From contig CANLVG010000004.1 in assembly GCA_947494565.1 (NCBI GenBank), forward strand, positions 372,001 through 436,000: a stretch of DNA of 64,000 nt, in the 5' to 3' direction. Under the pieces are notes generated by a model. That model saw nothing but the letters and a program-made list of their open reading frames with translations. It searched no databases and was not told the DNA's origin. The translations under genes and the position numbers were made by a program. Each line of letters starts with the position of its first letter. Within the stretch, counting starts at the first letter, position 1. Positions 38,754-53,685 of this stretch are shown piece after piece. The DNA comes from an uncultured Flavobacteriaceae bacterium. Its GTDB lineage: Bacteria > Bacteroidota > Bacteroidia > Flavobacteriales > Flavobacteriaceae.

Positions 38754-38766
38754 GTGGTGCCTCCAG
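38754..38766. repeat. Left att core
   Basis: The 13 bases gtggtgcctccag are identical to the end of tRNA-Phe at 53612-53624. Similarity continues inward (TTATTGAAC against GAATCGAAC), giving 22 bases with 3 mismatches. Confidence 0.85.
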
Positions 38767-38885
38767 TTATTGAACTATTTGCAGGTTAATAACTCCTAAC
38801 AACTCCAATACCTTTGAACCCTATAGAAACCGGGTATTTCGTAAATTTAAATATAGATAGGAAACATGTTTAACCATAAGATTTC

Positions 38886-38915
38886 TGTCAACTAAATTGT
38901 CAACCGTATGTCAAC
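38886..38915 (+). repeat. Three TGTCAAC direct repeats, candidate integrase arm sites
   Basis: TGTCAAC occurs at 38886, 38898 and 38909, spaced 12 and 11 bases, the last overlapping the integrase start codon. The middle copy sits in CTAAATTGTCAACC, which recurs with one mismatch near the right end at 53542-53555 (CTAAATTGTGAACC); TGTCAAC is also at 53560. Repeats shared by both ends next to an integrase fit arm-type binding sites, and could also let the integrase repress itself. Confidence 0.5.
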
Positions 38916-40176
38916 TATAAATTCCACATTCTTTTTAAAAAAGCCAAAATCGGATAAGGAAACATTGATACTCTTCTCGTCATACTTCAAGTTCGAGGAA
39001 AAGAAATTCGTTTACTCCACGGGAGAGAAAATCAACCCAAAATCATGGGATTTCAAAAACCGTCAACCAATAGCGCACGGAAAGAATAAATCAGGGGAAT
39101 ACAGCTCGATAAGAAGGCAGCTTAATCGTTACACGGATAAATTCGGCGAGCTTCAAGCTAGATCCAAGATATATGGTGAGGAGTTCACTTCTCAAATTGT
39201 TCGTATCGAATTCGATAAGGAATTCAAGAAAGCCAAATCAGGTAAGAACCTGTTTTTCAAAGCCTATGACAAGTTTATGGAGGACAATCAAAAACAGCAG
39301 AAATGGTCGCTCAATACGATTAAGAGATATAACAACATCAAAGGTATCTTGGAGGACTTCGAGCGGGACACGGGCTACAAGTTAAGTTTTAAGAGCATTA
39401 CAAAGCGTTTTCACATCGAGTTCACCGAGTACTCGATGAACGTAAAGAAACACGCGACAAATACCTTTAGGAGGAATTTGGGACTGTTCAAGACCTTCAT
39501 GTTCTATGCCTTGGATAACGGGTATACCTATCAGGACGATTTCAGGAAATTCCAGAAGATGAAAGAGGCATTTACGGAGAAGGTAGCGCTCAAAGCGGAA
39601 GACCTGGCCAACATTATGGAACATCAGTTCGAACTTCCGAGGTTGGAGCGGGCTCGAGACGTTTTCGTTTTTGCATGCACAACCGGAATGCGATTTGGGG
39701 AACTCAAACTCATAGGTCGCCACAATGTAATAGACGGTAGCATTTTATTGAAGGAGGAGAAAGGCGTGAACAAGAAACCAAGGGAAATTCCTCTGAACAA
39801 TGTTTCCGAGATGATATTACGGAAATACGACTATGATCTTCCCCTGATAGCGAACCAAAAACAGAACAAGTATATTAAAGAGGTTTTCGAAGCTGCGGGA
39901 TATACACAGGAGTCTGAAAGAGTAATCGTCAAAGGTAAAACAGTCGTTCGTGAAAAGATGCCGCTATTCGAAAGAATTAGTACTCATACCGCACGAAGAA
40001 CCTTTATAACGATGATGAAGAGACAGAAAGTCTCCGATAAGCTTATTGCTTCAATTTCAGGCCATAAGGATCTGAAAACATTAAACACCTATTATCAGGT
40101 GGACCAAGAGGCAAAGAAAGAGGCTGTGGCAGATGTGTTCGATAATATTGTTCAACCATTAAGAAAAGTCAATTGA
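38908..40176 (+). CDS. Tyrosine recombinase (integrase)
   Basis: A 422-residue phage-type integrase with an Arm-type N-terminal domain (KKPKSDKETLILFSSYFK), an SAM-like core-binding domain (about 110-215) and a catalytic domain. The catalytic Arg is in CTTGMRFGEL near residue 253, HTARR gives His360 and Arg363, His386 is in ISGHKD and the Tyr nucleophile is in TLNTYYQ (395 or 396). It sits 142 bases inside the left att core and should integrate and excise the element at tRNA-Phe. Its stop overlaps the next start. Confidence 0.92.
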   Translation: MSTINSTFFLKKPKSDKETLILFSSYFKFEEKKFVYSTGEKINPKSWDFKNRQPIAHGKNKSGEYSSIRRQLNRYTDKFGELQARSKIYGEEFTSQIVRIEFDKEFKKAKSGKNLFFKAYDKFMEDNQKQQKWSLNTIKRYNNIKGILEDFERDTGYKLSFKSITKRFHIEFTEYSMNVKKHATNTFRRNLGLFKTFMFYALDNGYTYQDDFRKFQKMKEAFTEKVALKAEDLANIMEHQFELPRLERARDVFVFACTTGMRFGELKLIGRHNVIDGSILLKEEKGVNKKPREIPLNNVSEMILRKYDYDLPLIANQKQNKYIKEVFEAAGYTQESERVIVKGKTVVREKMPLFERISTHTARRTFITMMKRQKVSDKLIASISGHKDLKTLNTYYQVDQEAKKEAVADVFDNIVQPLRKVN

Positions 40177-40910
40177 AAAGACCGGCCAAAAGGAAGAAGG
40201 ACGACACGGCGGAGATTGAAGTTAAACTCAAGCACTTGTTCGCGAAGGATAAGTTTGCCAGGGTGAAACCGAATGGGACGAACGTTAATGAAATTTTCGA
40301 GAACAACCTCAAGATTTGGTTGCTCAACAATAGTGACGAAACTCAGGTGCTTCATGGTGAGTCGGTCGTTATCTCAAATGGAGTTATGGAAAATCCTGAA
40401 AATGTGATAACAGGCAACACAAAAGAAGGTTTTGAATTAACTGCAACTGATTTTATCAGCGCGGAACTAGATTTTCTTTCCGGCCTTAGTGCCAATTACT
40501 ATTCAATTGTAGAGGGCAAACAATTAGCTATTTACAAGGGCTATCTAGAGCAACAAAGGAAAGTTAAGGCCGAAATTAAAATATCATTCCGTGACTCTTT
40601 CTACGAGGTTTCGGATTACGAAAAGGTTATGGCGCAACTAAATGAATACAGTATAGCCAGTAAAGTTGGAAACAAACACACATGGAATGTCGGAAGCGAA
40701 TCTAGGTTGACCTTGATGACTGCATTTTACGATACATTACTTGACAACGGCTTAATTAGAAAACATCGCACACTTCAAGAAGCTGCTGACGCAATTAACA
40801 ATCACTTCCACATAAATTATCATCGTGGGTATTTTAAACGTCATAGAGAGTATGAATGGTATGAAGGAATGCGAAACGACTTCCATTTTATACCAAAAAG
40901 AGTTAAATAA
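40173..40910 (+). CDS. Protein of unknown function, co-translated with the integrase
   Basis: A 245-residue protein that starts with TTG overlapping the integrase stop codon (TTGA), because the first in-frame ATG lies about 70 codons inside. It begins with a basic segment (KRPAKRKKDDTAE) and ends with a probable DNA-binding-like region (RTLQEAADAINNHFHINYH). I recognise no family; a faint likeness of the C-terminal part to RteC-type regulators is not enough to name it. The tight coupling suggests a role in integration or excision control. Confidence 0.65.
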   Translation: MKRPAKRKKDDTAEIEVKLKHLFAKDKFARVKPNGTNVNEIFENNLKIWLLNNSDETQVLHGESVVISNGVMENPENVITGNTKEGFELTATDFISAELDFLSGLSANYYSIVEGKQLAIYKGYLEQQRKVKAEIKISFRDSFYEVSDYEKVMAQLNEYSIASKVGNKHTWNVGSESRLTLMTAFYDTLLDNGLIRKHRTLQEAADAINNHFHINYHRGYFKRHREYEWYEGMRNDFHFIPKRVK

Positions 40911-40998
40911 TCAGTTTCTACTGTTACCGTAACTTGTAACAGATAATTACATATCCACATATATAAATTAGCCTTGTATAACTATAAAAACAAGGCAT

Positions 40999-41277
40999 AT
41001 GTATCTACCATTAGAGGAGCTGCTGGAGGCTCAAAAATCAAATTCCAGTCGTCTACAGAGAATTGAGCAACTATTGCTGAGTAATCCCATAAAAAGATAT
41101 TCCCCTCAAGAAATCTCAGAAAATACGCCCCTTAGCACTCAGACAGTGCTCGCCGCAATTAAGGACGGTAGAATCAAAGCTCAAAGATTCGGAAGAAAGT
41201 ATTTGATAACCGCAGAAGAGTTTGAACGGGTTTGTAAGGATGCAAAATCCTTAAAATATAAACGTTCGGTAGCTTAA
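40999..41277 (+). CDS. Excisionase-like helix-turn-helix protein
   Basis: A 92-residue protein with an N-terminal coiled segment (LEELLEAQKSNSSRLQRIEQLL) and a MerR/excisionase type winged helix (STQTVLAAIKDGRIKAQRFG, then RKYLITAEEFERVC) as in HTH_17 proteins. Such proteins act as directionality factors or regulators in Bacteroidota integrative elements. It lies downstream of the integrase group and is followed by an intrinsic terminator. Confidence 0.78.
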   Translation: MYLPLEELLEAQKSNSSRLQRIEQLLLSNPIKRYSPQEISENTPLSTQTVLAAIKDGRIKAQRFGRKYLITAEEFERVCKDAKSLKYKRSVA

Positions 41278-41284
41278 AGAAAAA

Positions 41285-41328
41285 AAGCCCAGAATAGTCC
41301 ACCAAAGACTCTGGGCTTAACTTTTTTA
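41285..41328 (+). terminator. Intrinsic terminator after the integration module
   Basis: The outer stem aagcccaga / tctgggctt is extended by an inner agtc/gact pairing and followed by a run of six T. It separates the integration genes from the replication genes. Confidence 0.85.
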
Positions 41329-41338
41329 CATAAACGGT

Positions 41339-42187
41339 ATGGAGACAAATTTACTAAAAAACACGGTAATATCACAATTTAATAGGGTTAGCGATACCTT
41401 AGGGGAGAAAAGAGAACTAGAACTCGTATTGAATGAAATCAGATCAAATAAATATGTAAAGCTTATAAGTGGAATTCGCGCTACTAGCGAAAAAAAGAGG
41501 AGCACTTCATTGAAAATGCAATTGCCGGCCGTCACCTTTGCCGGAACTTTTTCAAAAAGGGCTAAAGCCTTTTGTACACAACCATCAGGGTTGATTTGTC
41601 TTGATTTCGATGGCCTGAGGAATGCGGGTATCGTAAAGGAAAAACTGGCCAGGAGCAAGTATTGTCTTTGCATATTTATATCCCCTTCGGGAAATGGTCT
41701 AAAAATGCTCGTACGCATTCCTTTGGTAATAGGCGACGAACGTTATAAGGAATATTACAATGCCGCACTTCTTCATTATGGTGACTTCAGGCCCGATACC
41801 TCCACGAAGGATATCTCCAGGTTGTGTTTCCTCAGCCATGACCCTAAACTTTACCTGAACGAAAACGCAGAGGTCTTTACAAAAAGGTTTATCGCTCCGG
41901 TCTCACGTCCAAAAGTCAGGAACCTTAAATCCATTGGTAGTGCCACCGAGGGCGCAAGAATCAAAGGACTTTTCAAATGGTGGAAAAACAACCACTGGGA
42001 TCCATCCGCAAGGAACAATAGTCTGTACAAGCTTGCTGCTGCCTTTTGTGAATACGGTGTATCCCTTGATTCTGCATGGGCGGTTATCAGGACATACGAA
42101 GAGCCGGATCTCGATCAATATGAGCTTAAAAAGCTAACGGATTCGGCCTACAAGAGAATAACGTTCAACGCAAAAGAATTTGTTTAG
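41339..42187 (+). CDS. VirE N-terminal (BT4735-like) primase-type protein
   Basis: A 282-residue protein with the BT4735-like/VirE_N domain seen in Bacteroidota islands: LICLDFDGL near residue 83 (the likely metal-binding acidic cluster), ISPSGNGLKMLVRIP near 115 and SRLCFLSHDP near 160. It resembles archaeo-eukaryotic-type primase domains. Its stop codon is immediately followed by the VirE-C start, so the two form a primase plus helicase unit, probably for replication of the excised element. Confidence 0.82.
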   Translation: METNLLKNTVISQFNRVSDTLGEKRELELVLNEIRSNKYVKLISGIRATSEKKRSTSLKMQLPAVTFAGTFSKRAKAFCTQPSGLICLDFDGLRNAGIVKEKLARSKYCLCIFISPSGNGLKMLVRIPLVIGDERYKEYYNAALLHYGDFRPDTSTKDISRLCFLSHDPKLYLNENAEVFTKRFIAPVSRPKVRNLKSIGSATEGARIKGLFKWWKNNHWDPSARNNSLYKLAAAFCEYGVSLDSAWAVIRTYEEPDLDQYELKKLTDSAYKRITFNAKEFV

Positions 42188-43426
42188 ATGGAGGCAGTGA
42201 AGAAAATGGATGTACACTCAAAAGCGATGAGCAAAGTAATTGAGATAACCAAGAATGATAAAATCGACAAGCTAGAACAGTTTCTCAAAAGATTCGGCTT
42301 ACGACATAATTCAATTACTCGGGAAATCGAATTAGATGGTGACGCGATTATCGATAGGGATATCAACACCATCTACACCAAAGCCATGCGCGAGATTAAC
42401 TATAATATAAGCAAAAACAAAATATGGGACTACATCAACAGCGACTTCACTAAAACGTATAATCCGTTCCTGGATTTCTTCGAAAAGTACCAAGAGATGA
42501 AACCTGTGGGGCGGGTAAAAGAACTGCTGGATTGTATCGAATACGAGAAACCCGATCTTTCATTGGACAGCTTGACCGAGGACGAGTCAAATGCTGATTT
42601 CTTGGAGGTGTTCATGGAAAGATGGCTGCTCAGTATTATTGCCGCTATGCACGGAACTTATTCTTTACTAGTGCTTGTCCTCACCGGGCCACAGGCAAGC
42701 GGTAAGAGTCGGTTCTTCCGGGAGTTGCTTCCCATAGAACTGAGACCCTACTATGCGGAAAGTAAATTGGACAGCGGGAAGGATGATGAGATATTGATGG
42801 CCAAGAAACTGATCGTTCTAGATGACGAGTTTTCCGGGAAGTCCAAAAAAGAGGCCGCAAAGCTCAAAGATCTTTCCTCAAAGGATTCCTTTACGGTCAG
42901 GAAGCCTTATGGCAAAGCACATGAGACCCTCAAGCGCCACGCTGTACTATGTGGAACTAGTAATGAGGAACAAATACTCAATGACCCGACCGGAAACCGA
43001 AGGCTTATCCCTATCAACGTGAAAAGCATAGACCTGGAGAAGTACTCCAAGATTGATAAGGTAGAACTCTTCATGGAACTATACCATACCTATCAAGAAA
43101 TCGGCGACGGGTGGATGTTGGGACGAAATGAAATCGATTACCTAAATAAATGTACTTCGAGAAACGAGCAGCCCGACGTGGTTAAGGAGATGGTGCAGCA
43201 ATACTTCGAACCAGTAGAAATGGAAGGTGGAAGGGCTATTAAACTCACTTCTACTGAGATAAAGAACAAGCTCGAAACAAGGACAAGGGAAACCATCAGT
43301 ATCTACAAATTGGGGAGCATTATGAAATCCCTTGGGTACAGACAGGTGAAAGTGTACGACAGTAATACAAAGAACAGCAAAAGATGCTATTTGATGATAG
43401 ATAAGACTAACGAGAGCCAATCATGA
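42188..43426 (+). CDS. VirE-family P-loop NTPase (replicative helicase-like)
   Basis: A 412-residue protein of the virulence-associated E family. Walker A is TGPQASGKSR (167-174), Walker B is LIVLDDEF (208-215) and the sensor-type CGTSNE is near 260. The C-terminal 100 residues hold a winged-helix-like region (SIYKLGSIMKSLGYRQVK). It probably acts as a superfamily-3-type helicase with the VirE_N protein. The first TGACA iteron-like repeat overlaps its stop codon. Confidence 0.85.
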   Translation: MEAVKKMDVHSKAMSKVIEITKNDKIDKLEQFLKRFGLRHNSITREIELDGDAIIDRDINTIYTKAMREINYNISKNKIWDYINSDFTKTYNPFLDFFEKYQEMKPVGRVKELLDCIEYEKPDLSLDSLTEDESNADFLEVFMERWLLSIIAAMHGTYSLLVLVLTGPQASGKSRFFRELLPIELRPYYAESKLDSGKDDEILMAKKLIVLDDEFSGKSKKEAAKLKDLSSKDSFTVRKPYGKAHETLKRHAVLCGTSNEEQILNDPTGNRRLIPINVKSIDLEKYSKIDKVELFMELYHTYQEIGDGWMLGRNEIDYLNKCTSRNEQPDVVKEMVQQYFEPVEMEGGRAIKLTSTEIKNKLETRTRETISIYKLGSIMKSLGYRQVKVYDSNTKNSKRCYLMIDKTNESQS

Positions 43427-43679
43427 CACTATTGACAATATGTAATGACACGATACGAACTCAACGGATGCGGGGGCTGAGGAGCATATCTTGTCACCTT
43501 GTCATCATGTCACTTGTTTTTGTAAAACCATACGCCTATACCCCTCTCTATATTAAACTAATATTTACCCTTTTATAATGACACTACTGACAAGATACTT
43601 TGGGAGGTCAACAAACATGGGACATAGGTTCGTGTCAATTGGTACAAATTCAAATGACAAGACTGTGACAAGAATGACA
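43424..43679. repeat. Cluster of 12 TGACA/TGTCA repeats, candidate replication origin or packaging site
   Basis: TGACA is at 43424, 43433, 43446, 43579, 43588, 43655, 43666 and 43675. TGTCA is at 43492, 43500, 43508 and 43633. About 0.5 would be expected by chance in 256 bases. Pairs are often 8-9 bases apart, and three TGTCA units lie at exact 8-base steps. The cluster lies between the primase/helicase genes and the terminase genes. This fits iterons of a replication origin or a TerS recognition site. Confidence 0.7.
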
Positions 43680-43877
43680 AGTTTCGAAGACATAGAAATA
43701 CCACTGGGCGCCCCCATTTCCATCGAAAAATTGAATAAAAATCATGCTTTATACCAACCAACCTGTCAACTAAAATTGTAAAACATTGAAAATCAATAAT
43801 ATAAAATCACATATGTGGTGCCATAAAGTATCGAACCCTAAAATTATATCATTATAAATCAATAAAATTTCAAAGTT
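43427..43877. other. 451-base region without a confident gene
   Basis: Apart from the repeat cluster, it holds an open frame at 43578-43781 (67 codons) that spans part of the repeats and shows no family resemblance; I do not call it a gene. The last 80 bases before the TerS start are AT-rich and probably contain its promoter, but I see no clear TAnnTTTG box. Confidence 0.5.
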
Positions 43878-44135
43878 ATGCAAGGAGGAAAAAGACCCGG
43901 AGCGGGCAGGCCAAAAGGTTCCAAGAACAAAAAGACCGAAAAGATCAGGGAGCATTTCGAGAAGTTCATTTCGGACAACTTGGTGCAAATGCAAGAGGAC
44001 TATGATAAACTTGACCCCAACCAAAGACTACAGTTCATTTCACTATTGACGAAGTACGTACTGCCATCAATGAAGGCTATCGAGATGACCGGGGCAGTGG
44101 AAAGCCCTGTGATAGATATGAGCAAATGGAAATAA
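43878..44135 (+). CDS. Terminase small subunit-like protein (AT-hook)
   Basis: An 85-residue basic protein starting MQGGKRPGAGRPKGSKNKK, an AT-hook type GRPKGS core, followed by a helical segment (IREHFEKFISDNLVQMQED). Its gene overlaps the terminase large subunit gene by 10 bases, the usual place for TerS. In Bacteroidota phages, TerS-like proteins with this N-terminal hook are common. It should recognise the packaging site, perhaps in the TGACA cluster just upstream. Confidence 0.78.
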   Translation: MQGGKRPGAGRPKGSKNKKTEKIREHFEKFISDNLVQMQEDYDKLDPNQRLQFISLLTKYVLPSMKAIEMTGAVESPVIDMSKWK

Positions 44136-45397
44136 AGCCTCCCCAACTAACGGATTATCAAAAGGCGATCGTATACTCGGATGCTAGGTTTACAATTACC
44201 GAGGCATCCACTAAATCCGGCAAGACCTATAGCCATATCATATGGCTGTTCATGAAGGCCCATGAGAAGGGCATCGACCATGACGGACGCAGCTACTGGT
44301 GGTGTGCGCCCATTTACAATCAGGCGAAGATAGCATTCGATAGGTTCAGGAGGTATCTATCCGCAGCTGGTATATATAGGTTCAACGAGACCCATTTGGT
44401 GATATACTGTCCCAATGGAGCGAAGATTTATTTCAAATCCGCTGAGAAGCCGGACAACCTGTATGGTGAGGACGTGTATGCAGCGGTATTCGATGAGGCG
44501 CCGAGGGCGAAGGAGGCTACATGGTTCGCACTCCGTTCTACACTGACGGCGACCGAGGCACCATGCAAACTGATCGGGAACTTTGGGGGCCAGAGCAACT
44601 GGGTACACCTTCTAAAGGAGAAGGCAGGCTCGGATACTACATACCAGTACTTCAAAATTACATGTTGGGATGCGATTCGGGAGGGGATAATCACGGAAAA
44701 GGAAGTGCTCCAGGCGAAGAGGGATCTACCTGAGAAAGTCTTTAAAGCGCTTTATGAAGCAGAGGCCAGCGAGGACGAGGGGCAGTTAATAGGCTATGCA
44801 GCTATTAAGAAATTGTTCGAGGAGCAAGAACTCAAAATCGAGAAGAGATATATCACGGCCGATATTGCGAGATTCGGCAAGGACAGCACTGTAATCATGG
44901 TTTGGAACGGTTTCACGGTCATCTATGTAAAGGCATTACAGGCATCATCGATTGACCAATGTGTGGAGGCTATCAAGTCCATTCAAAGGTTGCACGATGT
45001 GGATATTCACAATGTAATCGTAGATCAGGACGGTTTGGGCGCGGGAGCTAAGGACTACCTAAAATGCAGAGGCTTCGTCAACGGTTCAAGGGCGGTGAAG
45101 ATCAAGGGCAAAGAAGAGAACTTCGCCAATCTGAAGACCCAATGCTACTGGAAACTGGCGGAAATGATAAACGATGAACTAATCCGCGTCAGATGTTCTC
45201 CGGAAGTGGAGAAATCCCTTTCCCAAGAACTGGAATGGGTCAGGTTGCCAAGGGAAATCGATACATCCAAAATCACAATCCTAAGCAAGGATAAGATCAA
45301 GGAGTATCTGGGCCGCTCACCGGACTATTCGGATGCGCTTATGATGAGGATGTGGTTCGTTCTCAAACCAAATTATGCTAGGTATGCCGTTAGATAA
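44126..45397 (+). CDS. Terminase large subunit
   Basis: A 423-residue DNA-packaging ATPase and nuclease. Walker A is TKSGKT (29-34), Walker B is AAVFDEA (119-125). The RNase-H-like nuclease shows YITADIARFGKDS near 242, VIVDQDGLGAG near 293 and DYSDALMM near 405 as the acidic triad region. Both domains look intact. It should cut and pump DNA into a prohead, yet no capsid or portal gene is present, which is the central oddity of this element. Confidence 0.92.
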   Translation: MEIKPPQLTDYQKAIVYSDARFTITEASTKSGKTYSHIIWLFMKAHEKGIDHDGRSYWWCAPIYNQAKIAFDRFRRYLSAAGIYRFNETHLVIYCPNGAKIYFKSAEKPDNLYGEDVYAAVFDEAPRAKEATWFALRSTLTATEAPCKLIGNFGGQSNWVHLLKEKAGSDTTYQYFKITCWDAIREGIITEKEVLQAKRDLPEKVFKALYEAEASEDEGQLIGYAAIKKLFEEQELKIEKRYITADIARFGKDSTVIMVWNGFTVIYVKALQASSIDQCVEAIKSIQRLHDVDIHNVIVDQDGLGAGAKDYLKCRGFVNGSRAVKIKGKEENFANLKTQCYWKLAEMINDELIRVRCSPEVEKSLSQELEWVRLPREIDTSKITILSKDKIKEYLGRSPDYSDALMMRMWFVLKPNYARYAVR

Positions 45398-45423
45398 GCC
45401 ACTTATTGCACCTTCCAATTAGC

Positions 45424-45488
45424 CAAAAACACAACTTCTAAGTCTTTTGTGTGTAAAAAAGTTTGAAAAATAGACAAAAACACAACTT
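45424..45488. promoter_or_regulatory. Two 14-base direct repeats before the RHH gene, candidate operator
   Basis: caaaaacacaactt occurs at 45424-45437 and again at 45475-45488, 51 bases apart, with the second copy 26 bases before the RHH start codon. This is a plausible autoregulatory operator for the RHH protein that follows. Confidence 0.5.
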
Positions 45489-45514
45489 ATGTGTTATATG
45501 TAAAAGCAGGAAAC

Positions 45515-45658
45515 ATGGAATCCGAAACCAAATTACAGAGGCAAGTCTATCTCACAGTGGACAATATCGAAAAAATAAAGCGTGTATCGAAGACCCTGGG
45601 GATAACCTACTCCGGGTCTATCAATTATATGCTCAATAAAGTGAAACTACCGGAATGA
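45515..45658 (+). CDS. Ribbon-helix-helix-like small DNA-binding protein
   Basis: A 47-residue ORF starting MESETKLQRQVYLTVDNIEKI. The pattern of a short beta strand (QVYLTV) and two helices (DNIEKIKRVSKTLG and SGSINYMLNKV) fits the Arc/MetJ fold. It would bind DNA as a dimer. It lies after terL, where phages usually have the portal. It may regulate the tail genes. Confidence 0.6.
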   Translation: MESETKLQRQVYLTVDNIEKIKRVSKTLGITYSGSINYMLNKVKLPE

Positions 45659-45699
45659 ATGGCTTCTCAGTCTTAAGGAATTAAATCTCAAAAAAAGAT

Positions 45700-45840
45700 A
45701 TGAAGAATAAACAACGTCCCGATTTCTTGGAAATAGCTCTAGGAAAGGCAAGGGTAGCGAACGCAAAATATGAAGCGAAACACGGTAATCCCTTTATGAA
45801 GATCCTAAGGGATTCGGAACTATTTAAAAATAAGAAGTAA
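45700..45840 (+). CDS. Small basic protein before the tail-tube gene
   Basis: A 46-residue ORF starting MKNKQRPDFLEIALGKARVA and ending ELFKNKK. Its stop overlaps the next start (TAATG), which argues for translation. It occupies the space where phages hold head-tail connector genes but is far too small for one of those. The function is unknown. Confidence 0.6.
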   Translation: MKNKQRPDFLEIALGKARVANAKYEAKHGNPFMKILRDSELFKNKK

Positions 45841-46373: not shown

Positions 46374-46384
46374 ATAAAAGTATA

Positions 46385-46942
46385 ATGAAAATAGGATCAA
46401 GAAGAGAGGAGTATCTAAAATTGAATAAACTCCAGGATGAATTGGAGGCGATTTGTTCGGCACTGGTAGAGAAGGCAAAAAAGATACTTGATGTCACGCA
46501 AATTGATGACCATCAAGCCTTGTATACTACGGGGTTGGAGTACATTCAAAACGAGTTTTTCAATAGGTTCGGGGCAAATGAGCCTCCCCATATAGATAAA
46601 CTAAGGTTTATGCTTTCCAAGTTCGATGTGGATACCGTGGAAATAAACCGATTGACCAGTGCTATCAATAATCTCGTTAAGAAGTTTTACAGGCACCCTC
46701 CGGTATTTTCCGCTATAGGTGTGACCAGTGGTTTTGCCGAAAGTGATTTTGACTATATACTGGATGAAAGTAAGCGCGACGAGTATGAAGCGCTGACCGC
46801 CTTTTTGGATGCAGCACGTGCTCTGAAGGACAATTATCATACAGGAGGTAGTATAGGCATTCTAAGATTCCACGACGGACTTCAATGGGATACTAGCCGT
46901 ATTTTTCCTGAAATCAATCCATACAAGTTCGCCCAGAGATAG
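46385..46942 (+). CDS. Tail-region protein, possible tail assembly chaperone
   Basis: A 185-residue, mostly helical acidic protein. It begins MKIGSRREEYLKLNKLQDEL and has no recognised motif. Its position between tail tube and tape measure matches the first of the two chaperone genes of long-tailed phages. A hairpin follows the stop codon. The function is inferred from order only. Confidence 0.55.
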   Translation: MKIGSRREEYLKLNKLQDELEAICSALVEKAKKILDVTQIDDHQALYTTGLEYIQNEFFNRFGANEPPHIDKLRFMLSKFDVDTVEINRLTSAINNLVKKFYRHPPVFSAIGVTSGFAESDFDYILDESKRDEYEALTAFLDAARALKDNYHTGGSIGILRFHDGLQWDTSRIFPEINPYKFAQR

Positions 46943-46989
46943 GAACAATTCAAGATTTTACTGATTGCTTCATTTTTTTATTATTAACC

Positions 46990-47018
46990 ATCCCCCTTGC
47001 TGTTATGGTGAGGGGGAT
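46990..47018 (+). other. Hairpin between the two tail-region genes
   Basis: The stem atccccc / gggggat has a 15-base loop and is followed by an A-run rather than a T-run. It is not a canonical terminator; it may tune the level of the downstream gene or protect mRNA. Confidence 0.45.
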
Positions 47019-47032
47019 TTAAAAAAAATCTT

Positions 47033-47302
47033 ATGCCTCGTGTCAAGAAAAAACAAATTCAGGTTAAGGACTATGTTGATTTCTCTATCGATGAGATTAT
47101 TACGGAGTTTACAAAGCTTAATGAGTTGAGCATGACGAATCTCGATCTCGGCCCTATTGAGATAATGACCCAGAGCTTCCACATAATATCGGAGCAATTG
47201 GAACTTATCGAGGAAATGAAAAGAAGAACAGGATTGAACAACAGGGAGCTTAACTCATTGTTCCCTAAAATCGATAAGAGCCAATGGTTACCAAGACAAT
47301 AA
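47033..47302 (+). CDS. Small tail-region protein before the tape measure
   Basis: An 89-residue protein starting MPRVKKKQIQVKDYVDFSID with a likely helical body (IEEMKRRTGLNNRELNS). It overlaps the tape-measure start by 19 bases. By position it would be the second chaperone-type gene, though no slippery frameshift site links it to the previous gene. The function is not recognised. Confidence 0.55.
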   Translation: MPRVKKKQIQVKDYVDFSIDEIITEFTKLNELSMTNLDLGPIEIMTQSFHIISEQLELIEEMKRRTGLNNRELNSLFPKIDKSQWLPRQ

Positions 47303-48780
47303 CGATAAACGTTCAGGACGGGGAACTCGACGAACTGAACAAGGATCTCCAAAAGACCAAATCGAATATCGACAAAGTAGAGGACTCCGCGCAGAAAGCG
47401 GACGGGGGCCTCAAGAAAGTCGGGGAGAACAGCGGGGCCATAGCCACGTTGGACGCGCTCACAGGTGGGGCCGCCTCCAGGATACGTGACGCTGCCGAGG
47501 CAAGTAAGCTGCTCTCCTTCAATTTAAGGGGCGTTCAAGCCGCAATCGCAGCGACCGGTATAGGTGCGTTCGTTGTGGCCTTGGGCCTAGTCGTTGCCTA
47601 TTGGGACGACATAAAGGGCGCGGTCACCGGTATCAATTCGGATCTTAACGACCAGATCGAGCTACAGGCGCAAATAACGGACGAGGCCCGCTTCCAATTA
47701 AAGTCCCATGAGGCTGGTGAAAATGTCCTTCGTTTGCAAGGGAAGACGGAGAGAGAGATCATCGAATTAAAGAAAGAACGCATCCAACAGGTGCTCGATA
47801 CTACGAAAGTCGAGCTTGAGTACCAGAAACAACAATTGGAGGGCCAACTTGAGGCCGAGAAGAACGCTAAAACCATATTTTATGCGGTAACGGAAGCCGG
47901 GAACCAGTTCTTTACGTTCATCGCGCGGGGTATGGACTCATTGTTGTCCAACCTTGGTATAGATATAGGGCTTGAGGGCAAGGTAGGCGAGATCCGTGGC
48001 AGTGTCTTCGACTCTTTGTTCGGAAGTGCCGAATCGATAGAGACCCGTAAAAAGGAGATCAATGAGCTGACCCTTGCTATCATAGGCCAACAGGACAAAC
48101 TGGCCGCTATGGAGCTTGCTAGGCAAGGTGAAGGCTCCAGGGGGCCGGATCAAGAGGCCGTAGCGATCCTTCCATTAACGGGATTGGCCGGCTTCGATAG
48201 CCTTGACCAGACCCTTAGTGCCGAATTCGATGCTATTTTTCTTGCGGAGACCGCTAGAACCAACCTTGAAAGGGAGCAGAGCGAAATCAGGAAGACCATA
48301 GCCGAAGGGGAGAAAGAGGCAAAGATATTGGCCCTTCAACAAGTGGGCGCGATATTCGAGAACCTATCCAGTATTGCCGGCAAACAGACCGAGGTAGGCA
48401 AGGCATTGGCCGTGGCCTCTACGCTGATCAATACCTTTGTTTCGGCGACCTTGGCATATAAGGCGGGACTTGAAACGGGAGGGCCGCTAGGGATCGCATT
48501 AGGGATCGCCTCATCGGCCGCTGCGGTAGCTGCCGGACTTCAGAACGTGAAGAAGATACAGCAGGTAAAAGTGCCAGGCGGTGGTGGTGGCGGATCCATT
48601 GGGAATACGCCTAGCACACCACCTGCGTTCAATGTCGTAGAGAGCAATGCCCAAAATCAATTGAACCAAAGTTTATTGGAGCAGAACGATCAACCGGTTC
48701 AGGCATTCGTTGTAGAGGGTCATGTGACGACTGCCCAGGAATTGAGAAGGAATGCGATAGAAAGCAGTAGTTTAGGGTAA
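47284..48780 (+). CDS. Tape measure protein
   Basis: A 498-residue protein with an N-terminal coiled coil (DELNKDLQKTKSNIDKVEDS), a hydrophobic stretch near residues 78-100 (AIAATGIGAFVVALGLVVAYW), a long central coiled coil with KKERIQQVLDTTKVELEYQK near 165, an Ala/Gly-rich segment near 385-415 and a glycine-run linker (GGGGGS). These features fit a phage tail length ruler. By the usual rule of about 0.15 nm per residue it would set a tail of about 75 nm. No tail-tip genes follow. Confidence 0.82.
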   Translation: MVTKTITINVQDGELDELNKDLQKTKSNIDKVEDSAQKADGGLKKVGENSGAIATLDALTGGAASRIRDAAEASKLLSFNLRGVQAAIAATGIGAFVVALGLVVAYWDDIKGAVTGINSDLNDQIELQAQITDEARFQLKSHEAGENVLRLQGKTEREIIELKKERIQQVLDTTKVELEYQKQQLEGQLEAEKNAKTIFYAVTEAGNQFFTFIARGMDSLLSNLGIDIGLEGKVGEIRGSVFDSLFGSAESIETRKKEINELTLAIIGQQDKLAAMELARQGEGSRGPDQEAVAILPLTGLAGFDSLDQTLSAEFDAIFLAETARTNLEREQSEIRKTIAEGEKEAKILALQQVGAIFENLSSIAGKQTEVGKALAVASTLINTFVSATLAYKAGLETGGPLGIALGIASSAAAVAAGLQNVKKIQQVKVPGGGGGGSIGNTPSTPPAFNVVESNAQNQLNQSLLEQNDQPVQAFVVEGHVTTAQELRRNAIESSSLG

Positions 48781-48787
48781 TTTACAA

Positions 48788-49363
48788 TTATTCAAAGCCA
48801 TTGTTTAAAATCGAATTTCTTAAGTTATAGATTTTATAAATATCTCTGTCGATTTTCAAAGCATCAATTGCGTCTCGGTAATTGTCAATATCCGTTATAA
48901 AGAATTCAATCATTTCGCTTCTTTCAAGCTTTGTATTTGATGTATATAGATCCATACGAATACTCAACAAAAAATCAGCAATCAAGGAAAGCATAATAAC
49001 TGAGTAAGAATTGTCATCTTCTCGAATATTGTCCACATCTGCATTGAACATTGATTGCATTAGTACGTTGAAGGATCTTACTACTTGGTCGGAACCAAAT
49101 GTTGTCAAGTTAAAAGCTGCGGTTTTATACTTCACCGATAGCAACTTTTTAGATCCGTCATCTTTCTCTCTTTTGCTGGCAGTAAATGTAAATAAGATTA
49201 TATATGGTTCTAATAAAGTTCTATAAGTCTCAATTTTAAAATCCCTTGTCCTTTCTTCTGCCAATAACTTATCTTCTCTCTTGGATTTAAGATACCAAGT
49301 GATCAAACCGCCTCCGAATATTATTATCTGAGCCGCAAAAACAATTACCAATTCCTTAACCAT
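48788..49363 (-). CDS. Single-pass membrane protein of unknown function (cargo)
   Basis: A 191-residue protein with one N-terminal membrane segment (LVIVFAAQIIIFGGGLITWYL) and a cytosolic helical domain rich in charged residues. It is transcribed alone, opposite to the tail genes, from a good promoter at 49428-49458. In phage-related elements such lone genes are often cargo that protects the host, but nothing in the sequence proves that. No enzyme motif is seen. Confidence 0.65.
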   Translation of the reverse strand: MVKELVIVFAAQIIIFGGGLITWYLKSKREDKLLAEERTRDFKIETYRTLLEPYIILFTFTASKREKDDGSKKLLSVKYKTAAFNLTTFGSDQVVRSFNVLMQSMFNADVDNIREDDNSYSVIMLSLIADFLLSIRMDLYTSNTKLERSEMIEFFITDIDNYRDAIDALKIDRDIYKIYNLRNSILNNGFE

Positions 49364-49427
49364 GGGTCTTAAGTTTTATGAATGAAATTCAATGTAGTAT
49401 TCGTATTTCATCAATTTATGATAAAAA

Positions 49428-49458
49428 CAAAAATAATTCGTAGTAAATAACTTCCAAA
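49428..49458 (-). promoter_or_regulatory. Strong Bacteroidota-type promoter for the membrane protein gene
   Basis: On the minus strand TTG (49456-49458), 20 bases, then TATTTTTG (49428-49435), a full match to TTG-n20-TAnnTTTG. It reads toward the membrane protein gene, 65 bases away. Confidence 0.65.
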
Positions 49459-49544
49459 GTGAATGAATGCGAATCGCATCCTTCGCCGATAAAATTACGG
49501 TAGCAAAAACCACGTTCCAAGTAAGTGAGTGTAAATAGAGGGGG

Positions 49545-49709
49545 TTCCAAAACGGAACGCCGCCCGCAAATAAGGGATGTCCTAAAATGGGGCATACCCA
49601 TCTCGTGGGCACGCTACCAGAGCGTAGCCACCCGGCGGCGATGTTTCCCGATTAGTTGGGAAAGGGAAATATTTCTCTCTACTGCGGCCGTACCCAATGG
49701 TGGGGACGG
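49545..49709. ncRNA. Candidate structured RNA or folded DNA repeat
   Basis: Five perfect or near-perfect hairpins lie in 165 bases: gttcc/ggaac (49545-49559), atgtcc/gggcat (49578-49596), cccat/gtggg (49598-49610), acgct/agcgt (49612-49626) and tttccc/gggaaa (49645-49664). A 7-bp helix, cgccgcc 49559-49565 with ggcggcg 49635-49641, closes the middle three into a multibranch junction. A last stem, ccgt-ccc / ggg-acgg, is at 49688-49709. Strand is unknown. It could be a regulatory RNA, a guide-RNA relic or a dispersed repeat. Confidence 0.5.
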
Positions 49710-49737
49710 AAAAGGACAAGGGTTTGATGAAAAGTGG

Positions 49738-49971
49738 TTAAATGATGATTTCCCCAGCATACTTTTCCATCCTTTGGCCATGTCCGAACGGATGTAGTCC
49801 AAGTATTTTTTCAGTTTCAACACATAGCTCTATCTCAACAAAGAATTTGTGCAATGCGTATAAAGTAAACTTACAATCTATGCTGCTATAATTATTTAAG
49901 TGTGTTCCATTATCCCAGAGCTCGTCCCACTGCTTTTCCGTAGTTAGGGATAAAAAATTTTCTAAAGTCAT
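49738..49971 (-). CDS. Small protein encoded behind the SRAP gene
   Basis: A 77-residue ORF starting MTLENFLSLTTEKQWDELWD, 20 bases after the SRAP stop and in the same direction, so probably one operon. It is acidic with several Trp, Cys and aromatic residues and has no recognised domain. It may work with the SRAP protein, but that is inference from position. Confidence 0.55.
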   Translation of the reverse strand: MTLENFLSLTTEKQWDELWDNGTHLNNYSSIDCKFTLYALHKFFVEIELCVETEKILGLHPFGHGQRMEKYAGEIII

Positions 49972-49991
49972 TTGGTCAGTAGTTTAAAGGA

Positions 49992-50810
49992 TTAGCCGAA
50001 TAGATCCTGTTGTGGTTTGTTCTCATAATCGATAGCGATTTCCAAATGATGCACCGGTGTTGTGATATCCGGTCTGTTCGATTCTACTTTCGGCCTATAG
50101 AGATCCCTACTAATGGGCTGGGCATAGATAAGTTCGTCCGGCATATCATTATCGATCAAATTTTCAAGGTCGCTTCGTGATGAGCTACTATCCAACCATC
50201 CCTCAACCTGATCATCATGTAATATTACCGGCCTTCTTTTTTTAGTGTGGTGGATCTTTTCAAAGAGAGGTGTCGCGGGTTTGGTGATTATAGCGAACGT
50301 GGCATGCCCGTCCTTTGTAAAACTGTAGATTCCCGCAAGTTTCGTTACTTCCTTATCCCTGCGCTCAAAGAAGAAGGGTATCGAAAACGGTTTTTTCACG
50401 TGGGTGACGCGATAGGGTTCGTAAAATCCCGTGACCGGTACGATACATCTTCTATTCTCGGCGCTATCCATGAACATACGCGAGGTAAATATCTTTTCAC
50501 TTGTGGCGTTCAGACCGGAACCCACTCCCCTTGTATCGGCATAATATCGTTCCGCATTCTCACCCAGTTCCCAACTTGGGATGAACCCCCACATCAAAGG
50601 CGCGAGGAATTTCGGGTTCTCCTGGGGCTGTATGGCCATTATAGGGTGAATGGATTCCTTTGTTCCGCCCTTCAACGATTGTTTGGCAAAACCGTTGATA
50701 TGGTATTGCTGAAGGTCGTCATCATCAAGGTATTCGGGTAGCTTAGCAACGGCGTTCAAGGCTTTCTCAAGTTCCGAAAGGGGCTTTCCCTGTTGGGTCG
50801 AATAACACAT
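49992..50810 (-). CDS. SOS-response-associated peptidase (SRAP / YedK / HMCES family)
   Basis: A 272-residue protein whose second residue is Cys (MCYSTQQGKP), the nucleophile that forms a covalent bond with abasic sites in single-stranded DNA. Other landmarks are LMWGFIPSW near residue 73, VPVTGFYEP near 128 (catalytic Glu) and IHHTKKRRPVIL near 187, where the usual motif is HxRMP. Family members protect abasic DNA. Carried by a mobile element it may protect its replicating DNA or resist base-excision-type defences. Confidence 0.88.
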   Translation of the reverse strand: MCYSTQQGKPLSELEKALNAVAKLPEYLDDDDLQQYHINGFAKQSLKGGTKESIHPIMAIQPQENPKFLAPLMWGFIPSWELGENAERYYADTRGVGSGLNATSEKIFTSRMFMDSAENRRCIVPVTGFYEPYRVTHVKKPFSIPFFFERRDKEVTKLAGIYSFTKDGHATFAIITKPATPLFEKIHHTKKRRPVILHDDQVEGWLDSSSSRSDLENLIDNDMPDELIYAQPISRDLYRPKVESNRPDITTPVHHLEIAIDYENKPQQDLFG

Positions 50811-50899
50811 GCTTATCGGTTTGGATTCAAGATAAATATTTTTGTGTTAAAACAGATTGTCTTCTTTCAAATTATGGAAATATACCTAATATTTGGAAT

Positions 50900-51184
50900 A
50901 TGTCCGAACCATACAATGTACATCAAGAGCTTATCGACCTTTGGGTCAGGCAGGCCATATATTTCGAAGGGGATTTTATGGTAAAGAACGCGGGCAGAAG
51001 TTATCTATCCGTGGTCAAGGGTAAAGCTGTGTTCTGTGACAATGGACATATCACCAACTACAAAAGAAAGCCAGAGGTATTGGAAAGGATATTACATGGA
51101 TTGGTAGACAGGTATCATAACTTCACCCATTGCGGATACTATTACTTTTATTCAAGAGGCGAATGGCAACGATTCAAGCCTTGA
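50900..51184 (+). CDS. Protein of unknown function
   Basis: A 94-residue ORF starting MSEPYNVHQELIDLWVRQAI, rich in Tyr and aromatic residues, with two Cys near residues 50 and 81. It lies divergent from the SRAP gene with about 90 bases between. It has no recognised family; it may be cargo. Confidence 0.55.
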   Translation: MSEPYNVHQELIDLWVRQAIYFEGDFMVKNAGRSYLSVVKGKAVFCDNGHITNYKRKPEVLERILHGLVDRYHNFTHCGYYYFYSRGEWQRFKP

Positions 51185-51282
51185 ATTAACGATGTTAAAT
51201 TTCCTATTTGATTGAAAATGTTCTTTTTAAATAATAATTTTAGGAAGATCCAGTTATCAATTAAACTTAAAAACAAAAACCA

Positions 51283-51612
51283 ATGGGAAAATTCGAAATC
51301 AAAAAGGACAAATCCGGCCAGTTCAGGTTCAACCTTAAGGCGGGTAACGGCCAAGTAATCTTAAGTAGCGAAGCCTACAAAACAAAATCATCCTGTGACA
51401 ACGGTATCGAATCCGTTAGGAAGAATTCGCAAGATGACGGGAAATACGATAGGAAAACCGCAAAGGACGGAAGTCCGTATTTTAATCTAAAGGCATCAAA
51501 CGGACAGGTTATAGGAAGTAGTGAGATGTATTCAGGTACGTCCGCTATGGAAAACGGAATAGCCTCTGTGAAAAAGAACGCTCCAGATGCTACGATAACT
51601 GACAATTCGTAG
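51283..51612 (+). CDS. DUF1508 (YegP-like) two-repeat protein
   Basis: A 109-residue protein made of two tandem DUF1508 repeats: GKFEIKKDKSGQFRFNL...NGIESVRKN and a second with DGSPYFNLKASNGQVIG...NGIASVKKN. YegP-like proteins are small beta-rich domains of unclear function, common in bacteria and in mobile elements. It ends before a clear intrinsic terminator at 51658-51687. Probably a cargo gene. Confidence 0.85.
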   Translation: MGKFEIKKDKSGQFRFNLKAGNGQVILSSEAYKTKSSCDNGIESVRKNSQDDGKYDRKTAKDGSPYFNLKASNGQVIGSSEMYSGTSAMENGIASVKKNAPDATITDNS

Positions 51613-51657
51613 TATATTTGAATTCACTCATTATATCCCATAGGGTTATAATATGAA

Positions 51658-51687
51658 AGGCGGCCCCGCTAATGGCCGTCTTTTTTT
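51658..51687 (+). terminator. Intrinsic terminator after the DUF1508 gene
   Basis: An 8-bp GC-rich stem (51658-51665 with 51674-51681) is followed by a run of seven T. It also touches the end of the convergent XRE gene. Confidence 0.85.
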
Positions 51688-51973
51688 ATTCTCCTTTCGT
51701 AAGCTCAAGCAGCTTTTCAAGATCTTCTGTCGAGCCAACTTCGTGAATTATGTTTCCAACTTTTACGAAACCCTTAATCGCAATGTCCTCGTTCGAAGAA
51801 ACAAAGAAGTCTTTTACATCTACTCTCAGGACTTCGGCGATTTTACCCAAGGTTTCAATCGTGGGGTTACCATTTATATTTCTACTCAACGACACCCTAT
51901 TGATGCCTAAGGTATTGGCGATTTCCTCCATCGAAATTCCTTTCTCCTTCGCGACTTCCTTTATTCTCAACAC
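51686..51973 (-). CDS. XRE-family repressor-like regulator
   Basis: A 95-residue protein with an XRE helix-turn-helix (ISMEEIANTLGINRVSLSRN, then INGNPTIETLGKIAEVL) in the first 55 residues and a short C-terminal segment (VGNIIHEVGSTEDLEKLL). It is divergent from the right-hand operon, the classic layout of a lysogeny-type switch. It probably represses the rightward promoter at 52047-52077 and its own. Confidence 0.85.
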   Translation of the reverse strand: MLRIKEVAKEKGISMEEIANTLGINRVSLSRNINGNPTIETLGKIAEVLRVDVKDFFVSSNEDIAIKGFVKVGNIIHEVGSTEDLEKLLELTKGE

Positions 51974-51985
51974 TGTATATGGATT

Positions 51986-52110
51986 AACAATTAACTATAC
52001 AAAGTTACAAATTAAATATAATTTAACATTAAATAGTTAAATATATTTGGACACTTAACTTTTAAATGCTACATTTGAATTATAATTATAACATTAAAGA
52101 GTTAATTGTT
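51986..52110. promoter_or_regulatory. Divergent switch region with GTTAA/TTAAC operator-like repeats
   Basis: Perfect inverted 10-base elements aacaattaac (51986-51995) and gttaattgtt (52101-52110) flank the region, and atttaac / gttaaat (52021-52027, 52036-52042) forms an inverted pair. A further TTAAC lies near 52055. The rightward promoter is TTG (52047-52049), 20 bases, TACATTTG (52070-52077), a full consensus match. The leftward -7 box is TAACTTTG on the minus strand (52000-52007). The repeats overlap or flank both promoters. Confidence 0.65.
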
Positions 52111-52124
52111 TAAAAACCACCATC

Positions 52125-52433
52125 ATGGACAAATCACATTTATTCAAGCAGGCCTGGGTAATCGCAAAGGCGACAGGCAAATCATTTCGTATCGCTCTTG
52201 TAAAGGCATGGAGCATCTATAAACTTAAAAAGGAAATGCTCAAGCGCAAGGTAAAGATAGCGTACGAGAAAAAGGACGGCAGCCTACGCTATGCGATGGC
52301 CACCATGCAAACGAAGTTCCTAGGGGACATCAAAGGGTTGCGCGCACCTAATCCCAAAGTAGTAACGTACTATGACCTTGATTCAATGGCGTTCCGTTGC
52401 TTCAAGGCGGAGAATCTAATCCAAGTATACTAA
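52125..52433 (+). CDS. DUF2693/WYL_2-like small beta-barrel protein
   Basis: A 102-residue protein. The N-terminal half is basic (MDKSHLFKQAWVIAKATG), and the rest is an SH3-like segment (VKIAYEKKDGSLRYAMATMQ, then TYYDLDSMAFRCF) of the type seen in Bacteroidota phages and plasmids. It is the first gene of the operon repressed by the XRE protein. It may bind nucleic acid. Confidence in the fold is moderate. Confidence 0.7.
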   Translation: MDKSHLFKQAWVIAKATGKSFRIALVKAWSIYKLKKEMLKRKVKIAYEKKDGSLRYAMATMQTKFLGDIKGLRAPNPKVVTYYDLDSMAFRCFKAENLIQVY

Positions 52434-52444
52434 AACCCATTAAT

Positions 52445-52765
52445 ATGAAAACAAACATTTCAAAAGAGAAGGCTATTGCGCTTTTGACCAACGTATTCAA
52501 GCACAACGACATGGCAACGGCCATATCAAAGCTTGCCGGCAACGTGATACATAACAACTACCCGTTGCTGTGGGACTATATCGAGCCGATATTCGGATTT
52601 GACCCGGACAATCTGGAGTTTCCCGCCTCCAACCATTACCTGGACTTGTTCTTTACGGTTTCAAGATTGGATTCCAATGCAAAGGAAAGAGCAAAGGTCT
52701 ATTACGCCAACATGGCGGACTTCGTCAAATCAAGGATCGAAACTATTAAAACAACTAAATCATGA
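52445..52765 (+). CDS. Protein of unknown function in the switch operon
   Basis: A 106-residue helical protein starting MKTNISKEKAIALLTNVFKH. The start at 52445 is preferred over one 16 codons upstream because it avoids overlap with the previous gene. It overlaps the next gene by 4 bases. No family is recognised. Confidence 0.65.
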   Translation: MKTNISKEKAIALLTNVFKHNDMATAISKLAGNVIHNNYPLLWDYIEPIFGFDPDNLEFPASNHYLDLFFTVSRLDSNAKERAKVYYANMADFVKSRIETIKTTKS

Positions 52766-53520
52766 TAGTAAAACAAAAAATCGGCAAAAAGCTGCTAAAG
52801 GAAATCAACGGCAATAAGGAAAACTACGTACTCCTTAATATAGAGAACGTGCCTTATTGGAAAAGGAAAGAGTTCAAGTTGTGCCTTCCCCTTTTGGGTG
52901 TCATATCTCAAGGTGAGAACGTCAAAAGTACGTTGGCGCAGTTCGATCCGGCCAATCCGATCGTCACGGACGTACTGTTCAGGGCCATGCGGGTGATAAT
53001 GTCGGACGATGGTGGCCTTAGCCATGATGAGATAAAGGACTACCTGTACACTACGGGCCAAATAGAGGATTTTGCAGGTGATACGGAAACTCTTGAAATC
53101 ATGGTGCCGGACGAGGCGGCACTCAGGATATTGGGCTTCTCGAAGAAAAATCTTAGGGACATGCCGGATAGCCGTAAGAACGAAGTGCTAGAAGAGTATT
53201 GCCGCGCCCTTGGTGCGTACAACGTGGACAAGACCAATCTAGATTCGTCCACCGAAAGGCTCTGGAACCTTGTCGAGCAGTACAACAAGACCAAAGAGGA
53301 ACTTAAAAACGAACGACTTGCGGAGCATGCTGCGCACATGGATAAGGAGAATGACAAATTGAAAAGGCAGGGCGTCATATTGAAAGAAATCAAGGAAAAG
53401 ACCAAAAAAGGAGAGAGCCTTAGCCTTGCGGAACGGTGTTTTCTCAACCCGGATTATGTCAATAAGATAAAGCTGCCTGAAGAAAGCCTGAAGGAAATTG
53501 CCTCTTCCGTGATCAATTAA
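52762..53520 (+). CDS. Protein of unknown function with C-terminal coiled coil
   Basis: A 252-residue protein starting MIVKQKIGKKLLKEINGNKE, with a probable coiled-coil segment near residues 175-215 (NKTKEELKNERLAEHAAHMD). It is the last gene of the element and ends about 90 bases before the right att site. No domain is recognised. It may be an early protein of the element, possibly for induction by or interference with a helper. Confidence 0.65.
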   Translation: MIVKQKIGKKLLKEINGNKENYVLLNIENVPYWKRKEFKLCLPLLGVISQGENVKSTLAQFDPANPIVTDVLFRAMRVIMSDDGGLSHDEIKDYLYTTGQIEDFAGDTETLEIMVPDEAALRILGFSKKNLRDMPDSRKNEVLEEYCRALGAYNVDKTNLDSSTERLWNLVEQYNKTKEELKNERLAEHAAHMDKENDKLKRQGVILKEIKEKTKKGESLSLAERCFLNPDYVNKIKLPEESLKEIASSVIN

Positions 53521-53575
53521 AAACGGCCACTTATCAAAAACCTAAATTGTGAACCCGATTGTCAACCAAAAAACA

Positions 53576-53608
53576 AAACCCCCGTAGTTATTGAAACTAC
53601 AGGGGTTT
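53576..53608 (-). terminator. Element-encoded terminator for tRNA-Phe
   Basis: A 13-bp stem with one mismatch (aaacccc...gtagtt / aactac...ggggttt) is followed on the minus strand by a T-rich run (GGGTTTTGTTTTTT). It lies just inside the right att, so the element brings its own terminator to replace the displaced one at 38729-38748. Confidence 0.8.
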
Positions 53609-53611
53609 GAG

Positions 53612-53624
53612 GTGGTGCCTCCAG
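53612..53624. repeat. Right att core
   Basis: gtggtgcctccag is the 3' acceptor part of tRNA-Phe and is identical to 38754-38766. It marks the right boundary of the element. Confidence 0.85.
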
Positions 53625-53685
53625 GAATCGAACCAGGGACACATGGATTTTCAGTCCATTGCTCTACCAACTGAGCTAAGGCACC
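53613..53685 (-). tRNA. tRNA-Phe (GAA)
   Basis: The minus strand folds into a full cloverleaf: acceptor GGTGCCT/AGGCACC, D arm GCTC...GAGC, anticodon arm ATGGA-CTGAAAA-TCCAT with anticodon GAA, and T arm CCTGG-TTCGATT-CCTGG. CCA is not fully encoded. The gene is intact despite the element, because the att core restores its 3' end. Confidence 0.95.

Follow-up and report, generated by a model that had tools for sequence, protein, structure and literature searches.

Known phage satellites follow one of three ways: some borrow everything from a helper phage, others redirect the helper's packaging motor by means of a small terminase subunit (TerS), and others again produce heads of their own and take tails from the helper. 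The capsid-forming phage-inducible chromosomal islands (cf-PICIs) have genes for capsid, protease, portal and connectors and obtain their tails from the helper, and islands of the SaPI type redirect the helper motor by TerS only (PMC10690885). The Streptomyces satellites MulchRoom and MiniFlayer are described as having a portal and a major capsid gene and no replication genes (PMC10690885), and phage-inducible chromosomal minimalist islands (PICMIs) are minimal islands without identifiable packaging genes (PMC10803314). AH14b, a 16.8-kb prophage-like element of Pseudomonas sp. ANT_H14, is thought to use the capsids of another prophage (PMC4936722). The present analysis concerns a 14.9-kb mobile element (positions 38754-53633) inserted at a tRNA-Phe gene of an uncultured Flavobacteriaceae bacterium. 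It lies within a window of 64,000 nucleotides, which is the whole stretch of DNA analysed (contig CANLVG010000004.1, positions 372,001-436,000). The element is probably an integrated, helper-dependent phage satellite that owns its packaging motor, a TerS-like protein and a large terminase subunit (TerL), and borrows heads. This reading is supported by a second, related headless island and by a gene order that could not have arisen through deletion alone.

Insertion site and borders

The integration target is a minus-strand tRNA-Phe(gaa) gene (53611-53685) called by ARAGORN. The 3' end of this gene has a 22-nt copy, attL (38754-38775, plus strand), that is identical at 19 of 22 positions to attR (53612-53633, plus strand), which lies inside the 3' end of the tRNA gene according to the repeat comparison and the tRNA call. 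The initial annotation had placed the element at 38754-53624; the left end holds, and the att repeat puts the right end nearer 53633. The host genome comprises 5.39 Mb in 45 contigs, and an artefact or assembly break was rejected, the element being wholly contained in one contig (C4). In both same-genus genomes examined, the tRNA-Phe gene is unoccupied and the same flanks are joined there, namely genes that we take to be DinB-like and type III pantothenate kinase-like. Because the flanks meet without intervening DNA in these two genomes, the 14.9-kb element is an insertion at tRNA-Phe. Whether relatives at the same site are full prophages had been raised as a check, and the answer was negative, the site being empty in both genomes. 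Like satellites in general, the element is integrated, bounded by att sites and equipped with an integrase, and its set of virion genes is incomplete.

Packaging motor and tail proteins

From left to right, the element encodes an integrase, a 245-aa protein, an excisionase-like protein, a primase, a helicase, the TerS-like protein, TerL, two small ORFs, a tube-like 177-aa protein, proteins of 185 and 89 aa and a tape measure protein (TMP), followed on the minus strand by the genes of an AbiN-like, a 77-aa and a SRAP protein, and then by an accessory end. TerL (423 aa; 44126-45397, plus strand) matches Pfam Terminase_6N at 5e-7 and phrog_2 at 9e-30. Its putative Walker and nuclease residues (ASTK.GKT, VFDE, D246, D300 and D400/D403, under motif names that are presumed) are invariant in a five-sequence alignment. 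The small subunit (85 aa; 43878-44135, plus strand) is called TerS-like on the basis of position, size and weak matches; the named TerS family phrog_18735 is matched at 0.005, and the better matches are to unnamed families (phrog_15261, 9e-9). It also pairs with the TerS-like gene of a related island in genome G086 (E 3e-11 in a single comparison). The complete TerS/TerL pair of the initial annotation, with all motifs present, is thus borne out by invariant residues for TerL and by position and weak matches for TerS. Only two tiny genes, of 47 and 46 residues, had been noted between terL and the tube gene, and these two alone are found. One is a 55-aa ORF (45491-45658, plus strand; 47 residues from an internal ATG), possibly of the ribbon-helix-helix fold, a name that is inferred; it weakly matches a 46-aa protein of G086 (E 0.005, single comparison). 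The other encodes a 46-aa protein without an assigned role (45700-45840, plus strand; unnamed phrog_36848, E 0.025).

The 177-aa tail-tube-like protein (45840-46373, plus strand) matches phrog_19091 at 1e-48. Its AlphaFold2 model, built from 41 sequences, has a pLDDT of 80 and weak PDB matches (best E 2.6e-3, TM about 0.3-0.4); 22 of the first 23 PDB rows are tail, neck or baseplate chains of phages, gene transfer agents or injection systems. Among the best 50 rows of the viral-library fold search, most are uncharacterised, and those with names are major tail, tail tube or virion structural proteins. These weak structural matches support a predicted tail tube. The TMP (498 aa; 47284-48780, plus strand) matches phrog_24676 at 3e-28, and residues 2-498 align at 34% with a phage TMP (L094). 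Among the TMPs of related phages its length is towards the lower limit, and the gene is for this reason not regarded as truncated. Both genes claimed initially are present and open, the TMP being recognised by PHROG and the tube assignment being supported by the weak structural matches.

Two further genes separate the tube and TMP genes. The 185-aa protein (46385-46942, plus strand) is 31% identical to a homologue in the G086 island and occurs in 2 of 261 loci. The family samples covered about 397 Flavobacteriaceae-level genomes, separate samples consisting largely of the same genomes, and the protein is found in 2 of 397, leaving aside one weak, broken match (G298; 50 residues, E 4e-4, 3 in-frame stops) that was set aside. 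An AlphaFold2 model of the protein alone was uninformative (pLDDT 38.8), and scans of viral contigs with the tube, the 185-aa protein and its two-row alignment confirmed no relative. The 89-aa protein (47033-47302, plus strand), which overlaps the TMP start, has a weak match to an unnamed PHROG (0.095) and no relative among the loci searched; it does not align with the 88-aa protein that adjoins the 185-aa gene of the G086 island. The usual order in siphophages is tube, chaperone, chaperone and TMP, and the order tube, 185, 89 and TMP resembles it. The G086 homologue of the 185-aa protein, however, occurs without tube and TMP, adjacent to a possibly scaffold-like 134-aa protein.

The late core genes are open over 423, 177, 185 and 498 codons. 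The terS and terL genes overlap, the 46-aa gene abuts that of the tube, the gap between the tube and 185-aa genes is 11 bp, and the 89-aa gene overlaps that of the TMP; because of these overlaps and short gaps, the late genes look like operons.

Head and tail-tip genes

The initial annotation had seen no capsid, portal or tail tip, and none emerged from phage profiles or tblastn. Late-gene profiles of related phages (tac, two small neck/tail genes, tail341, tail776, protease/scaffold, presumed capsid, portal and connector) matched none of the window ORFs. A tblastn search with 18 phage proteins against the element gave nothing better than E 0.2, and no remnants of the missing genes were detected by it. 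The capsid, portal and tail tip of a complete temperate siphophage are therefore not found in the element.

Gene order relative to complete phages

In the nearest complete phages, such as the G215 prophage, the late map runs from TerL through tac, two small genes, tail341, tail776 and TMP to the head-side genes, which follow as protease/scaffold, presumed capsid, tube, portal and connector. Once the record of phage P12024S is treated as circular, it shows the whole late set, with an annotated portal. Of the 66 loci that have both a tube and a TMP gene, 64 have the former downstream of the latter, and the two that do not are the window and P12024S, for which the record is circularly permuted. 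In the window, the tube gene is upstream of the TMP gene, in one operon with two proteins foreign to the phages. The tube gene is at most 300 bp from the presumed capsid gene in all 65 loci that have both. Where at least 4 kb follows the TMP on the plus strand, a protease/scaffold or presumed capsid gene comes next in 50 of 52 loci, the two exceptions being the window and prophage G023 (portal and connector on the other arm). Among 19 viral-contig loci with a TerL of 421-422 aa that is 63-66% identical to that of the window, tac is next in 17, and the remaining 2 end less than 400 bp past terL. These locus counts may include near-identical contigs and are not counts of independent events, and the profiles were iterated on the same loci that were searched.

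Deletion from such a phage map cannot yield the order of the element; rearrangement or separate recruitment is needed. Recent deletion from a related phage kind was rejected on this ground and for the absence of remnants. Identity to phages also differs gene by gene (TerL 64-65% to the L202, L204 and L219 phages; tube 55% to G215 and 50% to P12024S; TMP 34% to L094), so the element is a mosaic. As a separate observation, P12024S (L006, 2149-2694 and 5953-6552) carries two tube-like paralogues, one following the presumed capsid gene and the other the connector gene, and the G215 prophage (L008, 12483-13016 and 15748-16317) has two in the same placements.

Related islands

TerL was found at E <1e-60 in four of the roughly 397 genomes: the host, G086, G215 and G329. 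Three of these four strong carriers hold elements without a detected capsid gene, and that of G215 is a full prophage. The G086 island (12.4 kb; L174, 6041-18408) belongs to another genus and sits at tRNA-Leu between exact 20-nt att repeats. It encodes an integrase, AAA-type replication genes, a TerS-like protein, TerL and the 31% homologue of the 185-aa protein, and it is not matched by the profiles for portal, capsid, tube and TMP. The TerL proteins of the window and G086 form a clade with 100/100 support inside the phages in a 28-row tree. Their genes differ by 31, 21 and 60% at the three codon positions, a pattern indicating that both evolved as proteins; dS was saturated and no dN/dS could be obtained. 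Since the G086 island combines motor and 185-aa protein but contains neither tube nor TMP, the latter two look like an addition rather than part of the core.

The 134-aa protein of G086 matches phrog_24921 at E 4e-4, a family also matched by the prohead protease/scaffold protein of G215, and its own seeded profile points the same way; the phages' protease/scaffold profile gave no match to it at 1e-3. A scaffold-like protein, perhaps a modifier of capsid assembly, is suggested with modest confidence.

The G329 island, of about 20.4 kb at tRNA-Arg (L176, 590-19547, and L177 from 18048), encodes a portal (phrog_64, 4e-52), a MuF-like protein, TerS, TerL, a TMP of 1226 aa and an 805-aa tail-like protein. 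PHROG scans of its further ORFs revealed no capsid family, and a 281-aa protein is without assignment; it is possibly an independent headless element. Distant TerL carriers (G023, G002, G125 and G311) were rejected as satellites, because they resemble ordinary prophages; for G023 this was checked with portal and connector profiles, and for G002, G125 and G311 it is a judgement from ORF lists only.

Integration, replication and accessory genes

The integrase and replication genes, initially described as intact, are present and open, with Pfam support. The tyrosine integrase (422 aa; 38908-40176, plus strand) matches PF00589 at 5e-11 and PF13102 at 7e-8. Its gene is overlapped by that of a 245-aa protein without an assigned role (40173-40910, plus strand), which has only a sub-threshold Pfam match (CBM_X2, E 0.016) and no PHROG or PADLOC match. 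Next come an excisionase-like helix-turn-helix (HTH) protein (92 aa; 40999-41277, plus strand; HTH_17 4e-6, phrog_1840 excisionase 2e-4), a primase-like protein with BT4734_N and PriCT-1 (41339-42187, plus strand; Pfam 1e-24 and 6e-9) and a VapE/VirE-type helicase (42188-43426, plus strand; PF05272 3e-33, phrog_15962 2e-106).

Directly after the TMP gene, a minus-strand gene encodes an AbiN-like protein (191 aa; 48788-49363; PADLOC AbiN 5e-5, phrog_8187 0.003), possibly an anti-phage defence cargo. A 77-aa minus-strand gene separates it from the gene of a SRAP (HMCES/YedK-like) protein (49992-50810, minus strand; PF02586 1e-33), which sits in the accessory end. This end further contains a DUF1508 protein (51283-51612, plus strand; PF07411 7e-49), a Cro/C1-type HTH regulator (51686-51973, minus strand; PF01381 2e-10) and a WYL_2 protein (52125-52433, plus strand; PF10902 8e-19) that is also present in the G086 island (43% identical in L174). 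Two proteins without assigned roles complete it, one of 122 aa (52397-52765, plus strand; no Pfam or PHROG family) and one of 252 aa (52762-53520, plus strand; no Pfam match, two weak unnamed PHROGs at 0.02 and 0.07).

Proposed mechanism and alternative explanations

The satellite reading already appeared in the initial annotation; it has gained the second headless island and the gene order, and the swap of motor, tube and tail length proposed with it is carried over as a conditional model. Upon helper infection, the element would excise and replicate, its TerS would mark element DNA, and its TerL would dock on the portal of helper heads and fill them with satellite DNA. The helper would most likely be an Inhavirus-like siphophage, the late genes of such phages being the closest relatives. 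The satellite tube and TMP would be made late and would join or compete with helper tail assembly, resulting in hybrid tails or fewer helper virions. With 498 residues against the 686 of the P12024S TMP, and at about 0.15 nm per residue, a tail set by the element's TMP would measure about 75 nm instead of about 103 nm. The AbiN-like cargo would suit a satellite. More specifically, and tentatively, a lineage of headless Flavobacteriaceae satellites owning the whole motor may exist, whose member in the window mounts its tube and 498-residue ruler on the helper tip and packs through the helper portal; its particles would then be hybrids, assembled in the reverse manner to those of cf-PICIs.

Several observations weigh against the satellite reading. 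The exact layout is seen in one genome only, and since G086 is without tube and TMP, whatever role these have is not common to both islands. The common TerL clade has 92/96 support in an 18-row tree and unites the two longest branches of its group. Searches of the host with TerL, tube or TMP found no helper prophage, each matching the element alone. A divergent head protein is possible among the 245- and 252-aa proteins, and the capsid label in the related phages comes from position and one match (phrog_1623, virion structural, 8e-6), the gene being annotated as hypothetical in P12024S.

The clear descent of TerL, tube and TMP from full phages would also fit a defective prophage that lost its head and tail-tip genes and is now resident DNA or a carrier of defence genes. 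Cargo such as the SRAP and AbiN-like genes could keep it, and there is no close copy in other genomes of the genus, the TMP occurring in 1 of 14 (the host itself). Nevertheless, this explanation is unlikely: the tube/TMP order is not obtainable by single deletions of the phage map, no gene fragments are present, the att sites and late ORFs are intact, and the motor diverged as a protein in parallel with that of the second headless island. It is conceivable that the element is a satellite whose tube, TMP, 185-aa and 89-aa proteins mainly jam or decoy helper tail assembly, since it has no homologue of a tail tip, terminator or chaperone to complete a tail, and tail inhibition is reported as a strategy of some satellites and prophages (Tai; PMC11364771). 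The tube and TMP are, however, full length, conserved and not truncated, and none of 10 scanned proteins matches a PADLOC tail-inhibition family, Tai itself not having been searched by name. It is rather improbable that the 177-aa protein has a tube-like fold but belongs to the head or neck, the element then supplying motor, head or neck part and TMP. Such a role would agree with the constant proximity of this gene to the presumed capsid gene and with the rarity of a second paralogue, which is present in just 2 of 67 loci (G215 and P12024S) and follows the connector gene in these, whereas the named fold matches are tail proteins.

Comparison with known satellites

Possession of both TerS and TerL, the former by position and weak matches, is shared with cf-PICIs, which are likewise integrated and leave the remainder of the virion to the helper. 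Unlike them, the element has tube and TMP and, by the searches made, no head genes, none of capsid, protease, portal and connectors being found within the profiles used. The initial statement that capsid-forming satellites keep capsid and terminase and borrow tails agrees with the account in PMC10690885. SaPI-type islands resemble the element in their integrase, primase-type replication gene, TerS-like gene, accessory region and borrowed heads; the element adds TerL, tube and TMP, and its TerL does not conform to packaging redirected by TerS alone. With TerS and TerL present, the element is not a PICMI either. The P4 markers sid and psu were absent from the general Pfam and PHROG scans, in which no P4 profile was run by name.

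MulchRoom and MiniFlayer share terminase genes with the element, and MiniFlayer is also described as having tail parts. AH14b differs in being reported without structural genes in a VIRFAM analysis, and the account in PMC4936722 describes no combination of motor and tail parts, as far as it bears on this point. The Nonlabens phages P12024S/L (genus Inhavirus) share the tube-like protein (50%), the TMP C-terminus (31%) and the VapE helicase (44%), but are complete phages with tac, tail341, tail776, protease/scaffold, presumed capsid, annotated portal and connector, and their TerL does not match the profile of the element's TerL. A literature search among open-licence papers found no satellite with this layout.

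To our knowledge, the satellite field is known mainly from phyla other than Bacteroidota, and a group from this phylum would join it if the reading is true. A headless motor lineage would mean that the motor is separable from the portal and capsid alongside which it evolved, and the compatibility of motor with portal and of tube with TMP would become testable in nature. On the best reading, the element is the opposite of the capsid-forming islands, with its own motor and borrowed heads.

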